Positions 50,675 through 61,229 of a stretch of 64,000 nucleotides of DNA are shown here, piece by piece. The first letter of the stretch is position 1. Each line of letters opens with the position of its first letter. This stretch comes from Pseudomonadota bacterium. GTDB taxonomy: Bacteria > Pseudomonadota > Alphaproteobacteria > Rhodobacterales > Rhodobacteraceae. The notes below the pieces were generated by a model. The model saw only the letters and a program-made list of their open reading frames with translations. It was not told the origin of the DNA and did not search any database. The DNA lies in the NCBI GenBank assembly GCA_963205235.1, contig CAUJIP010000123.1, forward strand, positions 1 through 64,000, read 5' to 3'. Position numbers and translations under genes: made by a program.

Positions 50675-50950
50675 ATGATCGAAGTCACCGTATCGGAAGC
50701 GCGGGAGCGGCTGGCGGACCTGTTGGGCAAGGTCCAGCACGGCGGCGAGGATGTGACCATCAAGAAGCACGGGAAGCCGGTGGCGGTGATGATCTCGGCC
50801 GAGGCGATGGAATACTATGAGCGGCTGGAGAATGAGGAACTGGCGCGCGAAGGGGCCAGGGCCTATGCGGAGTATCTGGCGGACCCGTCGCAGGCGGTGA
50901 CGCTGGAACAGTATCTGGCGGAAACGGCGGCTGAACGCGCTGCGGAATGA
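50675..50950 (+). CDS. Phd/YefM-family antitoxin
   Basis: A 91-residue antitoxin. The N-terminal DNA-binding part is IEVTVSEARERLADLLGKV followed by VTIKKHGKPVAVMISAEAMEYY, the Phd/YefM signature. The C-terminal half is acidic and helical and should wrap the toxin. It neutralises the RelE-like protein encoded next (ATGA overlap) and probably represses its own operon through the paired TTTTGTACA sites upstream. Confidence 0.92.
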   Translation: MIEVTVSEARERLADLLGKVQHGGEDVTIKKHGKPVAVMISAEAMEYYERLENEELAREGARAYAEYLADPSQAVTLEQYLAETAAERAAE

Positions 50951-51207
50951 CCTACCAGATCGAACTGTCGCCCGAAGCGAAGAAGAACCTGCGGCGGATC
51001 AGGGACCAGCGGCTGCACGAAAGGCTGATCGCAGCGATTGCTGACCTGGCGAGTGACCCCCGCCCGCCGGGCTGTCTGAAACTGGTGGGCGAGGTCAACC
51101 AGTGGCGGGTCCGGGTTGGGGATTGGCGGGTGGTCTATGTGATCGAGGACGGGCGGTTGATGGTGCTGGTGGTTCGGGTCGCGCCGAGGAGTGGGGTGTA
51201 TGGGTAG
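50947..51207 (+). CDS. RelE/ParE-superfamily toxin
   Basis: An 86-residue toxin of the RelE fold: YQIELSPEAKKNLRRI, the helix LHERLIAAIADL, then the beta segments KLVGEVNQWRVRVGDWRVVYVIEDGRLMVLVVRVAPR with the basic residues used for ribosome-dependent mRNA cleavage in RelE relatives. It is co-translated with the antitoxin. It could instead be ParE-like (gyrase-targeting), but WRVRVGDWRVVYVI is more RelE-like. A REP hairpin follows five bases after its stop. Confidence 0.9.
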   Translation: MTYQIELSPEAKKNLRRIRDQRLHERLIAAIADLASDPRPPGCLKLVGEVNQWRVRVGDWRVVYVIEDGRLMVLVVRVAPRSGVYG

Positions 51208-55917: not shown

Positions 55918-56226
55918 ATGAAATCCTTCAGACTTGCGGCTGCATTTGCAGTCATTCTTCCGGCAGTTTCGGGCGCAGCGGTTGCGGGTCCGATCCAGAA
56001 GGCCTGCATGGCCTCGGACCGGGGCGGCGACCGGACCCTGTGCAGTTGCATCCAGCAGGCGGCGGACATGACCCTGTCCGGGTCGGACCAGCGCCGGGCG
56101 GCGAAATTCTTCAAGGACCCCGAAGCGGCGCATGTGACCTGGGTGTCGCAGAAGGCGTCGGATGATGCGTTCTGGGAGCGGTACAAGAGCTTTGGCCAGA
56201 CCGCCGAGGCCTATTGCGCCGGGTGA
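55918..56226 (+). CDS. Small exported Cys-containing protein
   Basis: 102 residues: a signal peptide (FRLAAAFAVILPAVSGAAVA, cleavage near VAG) and a short helical mature domain with Cys at CMASD, LCSCIQQAADM and a final YCAG, probably forming disulfides in the periplasm. I recall relatives in Rhodobacterales genomes carrying arbitrary transporter names; the size and sequence do not support transport. The function is unknown. A REP-like hairpin and a strong terminator follow. Confidence 0.75.
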   Translation: MKSFRLAAAFAVILPAVSGAAVAGPIQKACMASDRGGDRTLCSCIQQAADMTLSGSDQRRAAKFFKDPEAAHVTWVSQKASDDAFWERYKSFGQTAEAYCAG

Positions 56227-56368: not shown

Positions 56369-56656
56369 TCAGGCCGAGGCTTGCGCCTTGGCGATATCCT
56401 TCTTGACCTTCAGCGCGGCGGCCGAAAGCTCTTCGTCCCTGGCTTTGGCCAGATAGGCGTCAAGCCCGCCACGATGGTCGACCGAGCGCAGGGCGGCCGC
56501 GGTCACGCGGAATTTGAAGGACTGGCCAAGCACGTCCGAGATCATGGTGACCTCGTTCAGGTTCGGGAGGAACCGACGACGGGTTTTGTTGTTGGCATGG
56601 CTGATGGTGTTGCCGGACATCGGCCCCTTGCCGGTAAGTTCGCAGACGCGCGACAT
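56369..56656 (-). CDS. rpmB: 50S ribosomal protein L28
   Basis: A 95-residue L28 with the diagnostic [20 protein letters not shown] and [15 protein letters not shown], and the alphaproteobacterial longer C-terminus. It is a single-gene unit with its own terminator just downstream. Here rpmG is not adjacent. Confidence 0.97.
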
Positions 56657-56874
56657 TGTGGTGTTCCTTCAGTTCGTCAAAGCGGGAAAGGGCGGAATCC
56701 CCGGCCCTTGAATTCGATTTTGGGCGTGTAAGGGGAATCCCGGCGAAGGTCAAGCGGCGCTGAGGGTGTCTTTCGTGGTTGATGCCCGGATTTCCAGGAG
56801 CGCCGACCATCACCGCCTACACAGGCTTGCAGCTTTCGCAGTCGCATGCAACCTGCCGGGGCAACGGAGCAGAC

Positions 56875-57768
56875 ATGGCCTTTCCAATCCACGAACTTGC
56901 AGCGCTTGGCACCGCGACCTGCTGGGCGACGACGGGAATCATCGCCTCGGATGCGATCCGGGTGCTGGGGGCGTTTCACTTCAATCTGCTACGGCAGGGG
57001 TTTGTGACGCTGATTCTGGCGGGGATCGTGCTGGCTACGGGCAATTTGGACCTGCCGGGGATTGAAGGGGTGGCGTTGTTGGCGCTGTCGGGGCTGGTCG
57101 GAATCCTGTTGGGCGACACGTTCAACTTTGCGGCTGTCGGACGATTGGGGCCAAGGCGGGCTGGGGCTGTCTTTGCGCTGAATGCGCCGATGGCTGCGAT
57201 GTTGGGCTGGCTGGTGCTGGGCGAAGGGCTGGGGGGCCAGGCTGTCCTTGGGATCGGGGTGACGATTGCGGGGGTCGCGCTGGCGATCCTGGGGCGGCCG
57301 GGGGAAGGCGCGCATCGGTTCGAGCAGGTGCGCGGGCAGTTCCGCACCGGGCTTGCCTTCGGGCTTTGTGCGGCGTTGGGTCAGGCGATCGGGGCGCTGA
57401 TTGCCCGGCCTTACATGGCGGGGGGATTGGACCCCTATCTTGGCTCACTATTGCGGGTCGGAGCGTCGGGGATTGCGATGGGTCTGGTCGCGACGCTGCC
57501 TTTTGCGCCGAAGGCTCCGACGGTTTGGTCGGGCAAGGTGCTGATCCTGACCGCAGCGACGGCGGTGATCGGGTTGCTGCTGGGAATGACGCTGTTCCTT
57601 TACGCGCTGCAGGGGTCGCAGACCGGGATCATCGCGACACTTTCGGCAACCTCGCCCGTGATCATCCTGCCGCTATTGTGGTTGCGCACGGGGCAAAGGC
57701 CCAGCGCCAAGAGTTGGGCAGGGGCGGGGCTTGCCGTCATCGGGTTGGCGCTGATCTTCACGCGGTAG
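56875..57768 (+). CDS. EamA/DMT-family transporter
   Basis: A 297-residue ten-helix EamA protein. Repeat one runs to AGAVFALNAPMAAMLGWLVLGE and repeat two to GIIATLSATSPVIILPLLWLRTGQ. The start is MAFPIHELAALGTATCW (acggagc upstream), not the track start 32 codons earlier. The substrate is unknown. It stands alone, divergent from rpmB. Confidence 0.88.
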   Translation: MAFPIHELAALGTATCWATTGIIASDAIRVLGAFHFNLLRQGFVTLILAGIVLATGNLDLPGIEGVALLALSGLVGILLGDTFNFAAVGRLGPRRAGAVFALNAPMAAMLGWLVLGEGLGGQAVLGIGVTIAGVALAILGRPGEGAHRFEQVRGQFRTGLAFGLCAALGQAIGALIARPYMAGGLDPYLGSLLRVGASGIAMGLVATLPFAPKAPTVWSGKVLILTAATAVIGLLLGMTLFLYALQGSQTGIIATLSATSPVIILPLLWLRTGQRPSAKSWAGAGLAVIGLALIFTR

Positions 57769-58015: not shown

Positions 58016-59119
58016 ATGGCGCGATTCGTTTTGCGAAGCGCCGCCCTGTGGGCACTGGCAGTTGCCTTTTGCCCTATCGGCAGCGTGTCGGCCCAGGAAG
58101 CCTGTTCGACTTATGTGGTAAAAGAAGGTGATACGCTCGGCTCCATCTCGTTGGCTGCCTATGGCCAGCTTGACTATCAGCTGATCTTCAACGCCAACGC
58201 CGATGTCCTGCGGGATGGCGGCGCAAGCGTCGCGGCGGGAACCGAGCTGAAGATTCCCTGCGCGGATGGTCGCCTGACCAAGGAATCGGCGATTGCGCCG
58301 ATTGAAGAGGCCACCGCAACCGCCCCGGCGGCCGGAAACAGCAGTGGCAAGTATCTGCCAGCGATCCGGATCGCGACCGGGGGCGACTGGTATCCATTCG
58401 CGGACGAGGGCCTGTCGGGCGGCGGGTTCCTGATCCGGCTGACATCGACGGCGTTCATCCGGTCGGGCACGGAATATCCGTTCAAGATCGACTGGGTCGA
58501 CGACTGGGATTCGCATCTGACAACGCTGCTGCCCGCCGATGCCTTTGACCTGTCGGTCGCCTGGTACCAGCCGGATTGCACCAACCTTGATCAGGTGTCC
58601 GAATTCACCCGGAACCTGTGCCTGAACTACCTGTTCTCGGATTCGCTTTATGACGCGGTTTTCGGGTTCTTTGCGCAGAAGGACAATCCCTATGCCGAGG
58701 CCAAGACCTTTGCCGACCTGAAGGGCTCGCGCATCTGTCGGCCCGAGGGCTATTCCTATCATGATCTGGATGCCGAAGGGCTGATGGAGCCGGTGATCAC
58801 CCTGTCGATTCCAGCATTTACCGAGGACTGCTTCCAGGGGCTGATCGATGGCACCTATGACATCGTCAGCATTGAATCTCAGGCCGCTGCGGTTGTCATA
58901 CAAACCATGGGCATCGGCGATCAGGTGGTTGAAAACCCCCGCATCACCTCGATCCAGGCGATTGCGGCGATGGCGTGGAAGGCCAACCCCCGCTCGTTGG
59001 AGTATCTGACCTATCTGAACCGGGGTCTGGCCGTGATGCGCGACAGCGGCGAATGGAACGACATCGTGTCAAGCTCGCTGCAGGAAGCGAACGAGAAGCT
59101 GGCGGCTGAGACAGAGTAG
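58016..59119 (+). CDS. Exported LysM plus solute-binding (SBP_bac_3-like) fusion protein, copy 1
   Basis: 367 residues. A signal peptide ends near GSVSAQ. A LysM module follows (about residues 28-83: STYVVKEGDTLGSISLAAYG ... AAGTELKIPC), which binds peptidoglycan or chitin-like glycans. An Ala-rich linker leads to a periplasmic binding-protein domain resembling family 3 (IRIATGGDWYPFADEGLSGG ... FDLSVAWYQPDC ... DGTYDIVSIESQ ... VMRDSGEWNDIVSSSL). No permease or ATPase gene is nearby, so it may be a sensor or cell-wall-tethered binding protein rather than an ABC component. Its close paralogue starts 37 bases after it. Confidence 0.8.
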   Translation: MARFVLRSAALWALAVAFCPIGSVSAQEACSTYVVKEGDTLGSISLAAYGQLDYQLIFNANADVLRDGGASVAAGTELKIPCADGRLTKESAIAPIEEATATAPAAGNSSGKYLPAIRIATGGDWYPFADEGLSGGGFLIRLTSTAFIRSGTEYPFKIDWVDDWDSHLTTLLPADAFDLSVAWYQPDCTNLDQVSEFTRNLCLNYLFSDSLYDAVFGFFAQKDNPYAEAKTFADLKGSRICRPEGYSYHDLDAEGLMEPVITLSIPAFTEDCFQGLIDGTYDIVSIESQAAAVVIQTMGIGDQVVENPRITSIQAIAAMAWKANPRSLEYLTYLNRGLAVMRDSGEWNDIVSSSLQEANEKLAAETE

Positions 59120-59156
59120 GCGGCCCGTTCGCTGGGTGTGCAAAGGGGACGGTAAA

Positions 59157-60242
59157 ATGGTTGCAAGGAGGTTTGCGCTGGTCCTGGGCCAGGTTCTTGG
59201 CCTTGCATCAGGCGTTTCGGCGCAGGAGGCCTGTTCGACCTATGTCGTGCAGGACGGAGACACACTGGGCACGATCTCGATGACCGCCTATGGCGTGCTG
59301 GACTACCAGACACTGTTCAACGCCAATGCCGACCTGTTGCGCGACGACCCGACCGCGCTGGCTGCGGGGACCGAAATCCGCATCCCTTGCGCGGACGGGC
59401 GGCTGACTGTGACCGAGGTGATCCAGCCCATCGCCGAGGCCGTGGCCGAGGAGGTCGCGGCAGCCGAGTCCGACACCGGAGAATATCGCCAGAAGATCCG
59501 CATCCTGACCGGTGGCGACTGGTTCCCCTTTGTCGATGAATCCCTTTCTGGCGGCGGCGCGATGGTGCGGGTTGCGACGACAGCGCTGGTCCGGGGCGGC
59601 AATGACTATGCCTATTCCATCGGCTGGATCGACGACTGGGAATCGCATCTGAACGTCTTGTTGCCGAACGGCAGTTTTGATCTGTCGGTTGCCTGGTATG
59701 TGCCCGATTGCAGCACCCTGGATCAGGCGTCGGACCTGACCCGCTATACCTGTCTGAACTTTGCCTTTTCCGACCCTCTGTATGATTCCGTCTTTGGTTT
59801 CTTTGCCCAGAAGGACAATCCTTTTGCCGGGGCCAAGACCTTTGAAGACCTGATGGGGGCCCGGATCTGCCGACCCGAAAGCTATTCCTTCCATGACCTT
59901 GAGGCCGAGGGTCTGATGGAGCCGGCGATCACCCTGTCGGTGCCGGAATGGGCCGAGGATTGTTTTCAGGGCCTGGTCGACGGCACCTATGACGTCGCGA
60001 CGATCGAGTCCCAACTGTCGAACATCACCATTGAGGACATGGGGTTGGCGGACCAGATCGTCGAGAACCCGCGCCTCTCGTCGATCCAGTCGGCGGCGGT
60101 GATGGCCTGGAAGGACAATCCCAAGGCGCGGGCATACCTGGACATCATCAACCGGGGTCTGGCCGAGATGCGGCAATCGGGGGAATGGAACTCGATCGTC
60201 TCGGGGTCGCTGAAAGAGGCCTTCGACCAATCGGCAGAGTAG
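59157..60242 (+). CDS. Exported LysM plus solute-binding (SBP_bac_3-like) fusion protein, copy 2
   Basis: A 361-residue paralogue of the preceding protein with the same order: signal peptide (ending near GVSAQ), LysM (STYVVQDGDTLGTISMTAYG), linker and binding-protein domain (IRILTGGDWFPFVDESLSGG ... FDLSVAWYVPDC ... MRQSGEWNSIVSGSL). All four Cys of the binding domain are conserved between the copies, suggesting two disulfides. The linker is shorter and more acidic than in copy 1. The tandem arrangement and the short gap imply co-expression; the two may bind different ligands. Confidence 0.8.
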   Translation: MVARRFALVLGQVLGLASGVSAQEACSTYVVQDGDTLGTISMTAYGVLDYQTLFNANADLLRDDPTALAAGTEIRIPCADGRLTVTEVIQPIAEAVAEEVAAAESDTGEYRQKIRILTGGDWFPFVDESLSGGGAMVRVATTALVRGGNDYAYSIGWIDDWESHLNVLLPNGSFDLSVAWYVPDCSTLDQASDLTRYTCLNFAFSDPLYDSVFGFFAQKDNPFAGAKTFEDLMGARICRPESYSFHDLEAEGLMEPAITLSVPEWAEDCFQGLVDGTYDVATIESQLSNITIEDMGLADQIVENPRLSSIQSAAVMAWKDNPKARAYLDIINRGLAEMRQSGEWNSIVSGSLKEAFDQSAE

Positions 60243-60245
60243 GGG

Positions 60246-61229
60246 TCAGCCGGAACCCCTGGCCAGCAGCGCCAGAACCTGCGCGGCGGCGGTGGACGGC
60301 GACATGCCCTGCGCGACCTGATCGCCCAGGGCCTGCATCCGGGCGCGGATCGCGGGGTCGGCGGACAGGCGCGCCAGAAGGCCCTGACGCACCTCTTCCT
60401 CGAACCAGTGGCGCGCTTGTTCGGCGCGGCGGCGGTCGTGGTGGCCCGTTTCGTGCCGCCAACCGGCCAGCGCGGTGATTTCGGCCCAGACCTCGGTCAT
60501 GCCGCTGCCTTCTGCGGCGGATACCATCAGCGCCTTGGGAAACCCTGTGGGGTCCTGAGGGCGGCGGCGAAGCAGTTGCAGCGCGCCAGAGTAGTCGGCG
60601 CAGGTGCGGCGGGCGGTGGGCAAAAGCTCGCCATCCGCCTTGTTCACCAGGATCAGGTCGGCCATCTCCATGATGCCGCGTTTGACGCCCTGCAATTCAT
60701 CCCCGCCCGCGGGCGCGAGGAGGAGGAGGAAGATGTCGGTCATCTCGGCGACCATGGTCTCGGACTGGCCGACGCCCACGGTTTCGATCAGGACCACGTC
60801 AAAACCGGCGGCTTCACACAGCGCCACCGCCTCGCGCGTGCGGCGGGCGACGCCGCCAAGCTGCGTCTGGCTGGGCGACGGTCGGATAAAGGCGTTCGGA
60901 TCGCGGGAAAGCCGTTCCATCCGGGTCTTGTCGCCCAGGATCGAGCCACCGGACCGGGAGGAGGAGGGATCGACGGCCAGCACCGCGACTTTCAGGCCAA
61001 GGCCGGTCAGCATCAGGCCGAAAGCCTCGATGAAGGTCGATTTGCCCACCCCCGGCGTGCCGGACAGGCCGATCCGCAGCGCCTGCCGCGAAGGGTCGCG
61101 CAGCGCGTCCAGAAGGGCCAGCGCCTGTTCCCGGTGATCGGCGCGGCCGCTTTCGACCAGCGTGATCGCGCGGGCCAAAGCGCGGCGGTCGCCAGCGCGG
61201 ATCAGTCGGGCGCGGGTTTCGGTTTCCAT
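60246..61229 (-). CDS. meaB: Methylmalonyl-CoA mutase-associated GTPase MeaB
   Basis: A 327-residue G3E-family chaperone GTPase that protects and reloads methylmalonyl-CoA (or ethylmalonyl-CoA) mutase with adenosylcobalamin. P-loop [18 protein letters not shown], the switch region [28 protein letters not shown] and base-recognition NKAD are all present. The mutase itself is not in the window. It is convergent with the LysM tandem (three-base gap) and divergent from hrpB. Confidence 0.95.

Follow-up and report, generated by a model that had tools for sequence, protein, structure and literature searches.

Two adjacent genes in a 64,000-nucleotide stretch of DNA (the window) from a Tabrizicola-group genome on balance appear to encode exported, peptidoglycan-tethered substrate-binding proteins (SBPs) that serve as receptors and not as transporter subunits, and their relatives at a home locus in other Rhodobacteraceae would signal to a PDZ-ectodomain Ser/Thr kinase. 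Tandem paralogues joining a LysM domain to a family-3-like SBP domain had been described in the earlier note on this DNA, and they hold up as real genes with intact reading frames, 37 bp apart on the + strand and 65% identical over 341 residues, whose domains are recovered by Pfam or profile searches and by AlphaFold2 and Foldseek. The features of the pair are as follows.

58016 to 59119, + strand: LysM-SBP gene A, 367 amino acids, comprising signal peptide, LysM, linker and family-3 SBP domain.
58016 to 58093, + strand: predicted Sec signal peptide of gene A, about residues 1-26, ...SVSA/QEAC, read from the sequence.
58112 to 58258, + strand: LysM domain of gene A, residues 33-81, PF01476 E 8e-06, flanked by C30 and C82.
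58352 to 59068, + strand: family-3 SBP domain of gene A, about residues 113-351, from AlphaFold2 and Foldseek, with four invariant Cys.
58616 to 58618, + strand: codon 201 (Leu) of gene A, aligned with the canonical ligand-carboxylate Arg of family-3 SBPs.
59157 to 60242, + strand: LysM-SBP gene B, 361 amino acids, tandem paralogue of gene A.
59241 to 59387, + strand: LysM domain of gene B, residues 29-77, Pfam E 0.0041 (sub-threshold), assigned by homology to gene A.
59484 to 60239, + strand: family-3 SBP domain of gene B, Pfam E 0.0024, 65% identical to that of A and included in the family alignment.

Comparison with orthologues in one relative gave dN/dS values of 0.12 and 0.14 for the two genes, which are therefore both under purifying selection. 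Their third-position GC is 0.75-0.78, the start of gene B is better placed at the ATG at 59157 than at the GTG at 59136, and a promoter and terminator scan returned no signal exceeding chance. The signal peptides are of Sec type (ending ...SVSAQEAC in A and ...GVSAQEAC in B, with low AlphaFold confidence at residues 1-15 of A), so that proteins A and B are probably exported; no lipobox was read in either N-terminus. The LysM domain of gene A scores over the Pfam cut-off and that of gene B, at 17.5 bits, under it, and the family profile matches the LysM of E. coli-type Kbp (E 1.3e-12). Through this domain the pair would be tethered to murein. The conserved cysteines pointed out in the earlier note were recovered: C188, C202, C241 and C272, all in the SBP domain, show no variation across 65 homologues, and C30 and C82, either side of the LysM, are kept in 82-95%, although their arrangement in pairs is putative.

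Sequence matches to SBP_bac_3 (E 0.26 and 11.5 bits for A, E 0.0024 and 18.1 bits for B) fall below the Pfam gathering score of 26.4 bits, and the earlier note had left room for a different C-terminal fold. The AlphaFold2 model (pLDDT 88) adopts the two-lobed type II periplasmic-binding-protein fold, and a Foldseek search of the PDB retrieved 1417 chains at E <= 0.001, with family-3 amino-acid SBPs at the top (best E 1.3e-14, ArgBP). As modelled, the domain is clearly a family-3 SBP despite the marginal sequence match. It has its fold in common with the cluster F SBPs LAO, ArgBP and the GlnPQ SBDs, but differs from them in the added LysM, four further invariant Cys, a stretch inserted ahead of the FSDP motif, the lack of a permease and, in the window pair, the replacement of the ligand-carboxylate Arg. 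The structural neighbours also include a histidine-kinase sensor domain (3h7m), BvgS VFT2 (3mpl) and an ancestral precursor of cyclohexadienyl dehydratase. Venus-flytrap sensor kinases (BvgS VFT, 3h7m) likewise use the SBP fold as an input domain, but there it is covalently part of a histidine kinase, whereas here it sits in a separate, putatively wall-tethered protein with relatives beside a Ser/Thr kinase.

The idea that the pair is a one-off was rejected, given paralogues in its own genome, its genus and the wider family. LysM-SBP paralogues occur in 24 of 25 examined genomes of the genus, and in a sample of 199 Rhodobacteraceae genomes 41 had some match and about 30 a long match covering the SBP; the family is found in about a sixth to a fifth of the sampled genera. 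Anchoring of a binding protein to the wall had been called unusual in the earlier note. No full LysM plus SBP protein was found outside the Rhodobacteraceae in 190 genomes across the class (where matches were SBP-only or LysM-only), and the genome of the window itself holds about eight paralogues.

LysM-SBP genes were found in four settings; the 122 loci counted are a partly redundant set collected through LysM-SBP similarity. At the home locus, a Ser/Thr kinase gene is accompanied by usually two and up to four consecutive LysM-SBP genes, with the fixed order kinase, LysM-SBP 1, LysM-SBP 2 in about a dozen named Rhodobacteraceae genera. This locus also holds genes for FHA, PP2C and dynamin-like proteins in Ruegeria, Leisingera, Aliiroseovarius, Defluviimonas, Frigidibacter, Albidovulum and Thalassobius, and the kinase stands alone in Tabrizicola, Gemmobacter, Silicimonas and Boseongicola. 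Some first-subunit proteins (L054:1570-3042, L067:8873-10513, L040:500) have much longer N-terminal parts (490-546 amino acids) in which Pfam detects no LysM, reflecting either a gene-start error or a real longer linker. The second setting, at 13 loci, lies between mraY and murD in the dcw cell-wall cluster (e.g. L037, L042, L050, L052 and L053), an unusual insertion in so conserved an operon. A divergent branch forms tandem pairs in other genera with no nearby kinase, mostly in genomes that lack the kinase altogether. The fourth setting is that of the window pair, with these neighbours.

56779 to 57768, + strand: EamA-family (DMT) transporter, upstream neighbour, PF00892, with synteny in L043 and L044.
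60246 to 61229, - strand: MeaB GTPase, downstream convergent neighbour, PF03308 and NCBIfam, with synteny in relatives.

EamA and MeaB border a conserved off-locus site common to the relatives L043, L044, L045 and L076, and no kinase gene adjoins the window pair. Two small conserved genes of no strong family (55918-56226, with no Pfam or NCBIfam match, and 56369-56656) also adjoin this site in relatives. Further upstream in the window, at 50675-51207, overlapping Phd/YefM-like and RelE-like frames resemble a type II toxin-antitoxin system, as judged by sequence.

A Ser/Thr kinase gene lies within five genes of a LysM-SBP in 75 of the 122 partly redundant loci. The long kinases among them (n=72) carry a single strongly hydrophobic stretch downstream of the kinase domain, followed by 267-457 residues whose end is modelled as a tandem PDZ (pLDDT 96) closest to DegP (E 1.7e-5) and the RseP PDZ pair. 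This ectodomain was found in 72 of 72 kinases near LysM-SBPs, a set selected through the LysM-SBPs themselves. The converse approach, a kinase-domain search of 198 genomes of the family followed by inspection of 66 kinases and their neighbours, gave 5 PDZ kinases with and 15 without a LysM-SBP, as against 0 with and 46 without among kinases lacking PDZ. LysM-SBPs thus adjoin 5/20 PDZ kinases and 0/46 others (Fisher p 0.0017, for kinases that are not phylogenetically independent and some of whose flanks are shortened by contig ends). However, the 15 of 20 PDZ kinases with no LysM-SBP count against the kinase-receptor reading. The proposal that every LysM-SBP needs a kinase was rejected, as the divergent pairs occur mostly in kinase-less genomes, and kinase coupling is not universal in the family.

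Kinases lacking PDZ are mostly soluble, about 440 amino acids long and commonly accompanied by FHA, PP2C and dynamin genes. These genes were rejected as SBP partners, since soluble kinases with no LysM-SBP have them too, and their distribution ties them to the kinase family and not to the SBPs. In Rhodobacteraceae, a Ser/Thr kinase gene forms a conserved cassette with genes for an FHA protein, a PP2C phosphatase and two or three dynamin-like GTPases (e.g. L155:776-11095, L156:6636-18608 and L163:2905-10515), which occurs in a soluble-kinase form with no LysM-SBP and in a PDZ-ectodomain form with SBP partners.

PDZ kinases with no LysM-SBP have revealed a second type of neighbour. Three of them adjoin a fusion of a PstS-like SBP (PBP_like_2) with a murein-binding OmpA domain (L208:5135-6610, L209:5686-7269 and L216:2141-3703), and these fusions resemble a replacement receptor. 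Another has two tandem NMT1/TAXI-like SBP genes directly upstream (L201:652-2682). A directed search of selected genomes with a single OmpA-fusion query found a homologue within 20 kb at 7 of 9 PDZ kinase loci lacking a LysM-SBP, although three of these were known beforehand and the independent part is 4/6; the chance rate is estimated at about 2-4% per locus, from 2-4 copies in about 4 Mb. The three genomes included that have LysM-SBP-linked kinases (G000, G181 and G120) contain only distant OmpA homologues (31-37%), which lie away from the kinase, and one genome (G226) has both types at separate loci. When the neighbours of PDZ kinases were compared with those of soluble kinases by a systematic Pfam count, the outcome was no more than suggestive; the directed search was clearer. 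The most telling indication that the SBPs act as receptors is that two unrelated wall-anchored designs occur beside one kinase type. Sensing or wall-associated signalling, as suggested in the earlier note, is strongly supported on circumstantial grounds by the PDZ Ser/Thr kinase as conserved home-locus partner, but the pair itself is not beside a kinase.

How the pair came to stand apart is indicated by a tree of 95 rows (quick method, SH-aLRT support), in which the first genes after the kinase form one clade and the second genes another. The mraY-linked and window genes are nested in the second-gene clade (support 100), the window group being an 11-row clade (SH-aLRT 100) that includes the middle gene of a three-gene Defluviimonas kinase locus. 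The simplest reading is that the window pair arose by duplication of a second-subunit gene that had moved away from the kinase locus. Its pocket has also changed. HMMER alignment to AncQR and other solved SBPs assigns the canonical Arg position to Leu201 of gene A and to Thr (residue 198) of gene B. The Arg is present in 33 of 38 kinase-linked rows of the tree and is replaced by Leu, Thr, Met or Phe in all 11 rows of the window clade, where the sole kinase-linked gene has already lost it, and by Met or Leu in 9 of 9 mraY-linked rows. Branches away from the kinase thus apparently acquired altered pockets on separate occasions. With the pocket Arg replaced, a different ligand or a role as ligand-free adaptor is most likely for the window pair, and ligand binding itself could have been lost.

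A rather unlikely alternative is that the proteins are wall-homeostasis factors: their SBP domain would control a peptidoglycan enzyme and take a muropeptide or another piece of the wall as its ligand, kinase coupling being secondary. The lytic transglycosylase MltF has an SBP-like domain located at peptidoglycan that is thought to regulate by binding a wall fragment; the pair resembles it in having such a domain, putatively at the wall, but lacks a catalytic domain and has LysM instead. Retention of LysM across the family, the mraY-murD branch in the dcw cluster in a well-supported part of the tree, the existence of divergent pairs lacking a kinase, and the loss of Arg in the mraY and window branches, which fits a non-amino-acid ligand, all favour such a role. 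However, no wall enzyme is conserved beside either the window pair or the pairs at the home locus, the insertion between mraY and murD may be passive, and the amino-acid Arg is mostly kept at the home locus.

It is distinctly improbable that the pair are ordinary scavenging SBPs handing substrate to an ABC permease whose gene lies elsewhere. There are general precedents for orphan SBPs sharing a permease, the domain has the family-3 amino-acid SBP fold, and BPD_transp_1 matches number 94 in the genome. The genome-wide search with BPD_transp_1 (PF00528) and ABC_tran (PF00005, 113 matches) nevertheless placed none above cut-off anywhere along the 100-kb contig, and a cognate transporter was rejected on these grounds, in agreement with the earlier note, which had seen no permease or ATPase gene nearby. 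Because about 2-3 matches are expected per 100 kb, this gap is only mildly informative alone, but an associated permease at a conserved distance, also raised there, was looked for and no ABC permease or ATPase is conserved at the homologous LysM-SBP loci. In Tabrizicola, a complete ABC transporter upstream of the kinase was rejected as partner, since by sequence judgement it seems to have its own binding protein; it is missing from most other genera. The LysM tether, the three putative Cys pairs, the missing carboxylate Arg of the two window proteins and the repeated pairing with a kinase and not a permease also speak against scavenging. Very unlikely, finally, are drifting surplus duplicates or repurposed SBP-fold enzymes with no sensing role: the SBP fold also gave rise to cyclohexadienyl dehydratase, whose ancestral precursor is among the structural neighbours, and eight or so paralogues share one genome, but the low dN/dS, intact frames, conserved Cys and off-locus synteny kept in relatives argue otherwise.

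Under the favoured receptor reading, the LysM domain would keep the protein on murein while the bilobed SBP domain shuts on its ligand. At the home locus, distinct first and second subunits would signal to the Ser/Thr kinase through its DegP/RseP-like periplasmic tandem PDZ, the ligand-bound, wall-tethered SBP altering its contact with this ectodomain. The FHA protein would read and PP2C erase the phosphorylation set by the kinase, with the dynamin-like GTPases as candidate effectors. The window pair may have changed ligand, or may act as an adaptor that feeds into the same kinase or a different wall-linked partner; because the pair appears relocated from the kinase and its pocket Arg has changed, we can only infer a kinase link for it. 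More tentatively, murein-anchored SBPs may be interchangeable receptor cartridges for one class of PDZ kinase in Rhodobacteraceae, LysM plus family-3 SBP in some genomes and OmpA plus PstS-like SBP in others, with dispersed copies widening the inputs of one kinase, which would read a wall ligand and control FHA/PP2C output and dynamin-like membrane remodelling.

A search of the open literature found no published description of a LysM-SBP and PDZ-kinase module, although absence there is not proof of novelty. In its proposed logic the module is comparable to the GlnH-GlnX-PknG system of Actinobacteria, in which the gene of a family-3-type SBP with no transporter duty accompanies that of a Ser/Thr kinase, which the SBP is proposed to control from across the membrane (PMC6069109, PMC9769921); the home-locus LysM-SBPs are likewise encoded with a Ser/Thr kinase. 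However, GlnH is a lipoprotein signalling through the membrane protein GlnX to PknG, whereas here the SBP bears a LysM, the SBPs are paired and the kinase itself is predicted to span the membrane with a PDZ ectodomain. The mycobacterial LpqZ and FecB are also orphan SBP-fold proteins that have no transporter and act in the cell envelope (PMC12802301), but they are lipoproteins of other SBP families with arabinosyltransferase partners.

The activation of bacterial Ser/Thr kinases is an outstanding question (PMC6069109), and with their activators largely unknown, likely wall-tethered receptors encoded next door give testable ligands and partners. The module suggests a second route, beside PASTA domains, to cell-wall sensing by such kinases. 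It also suggests that annotations reading 'transporter substrate-binding domain-containing' may hide non-transporter proteins.
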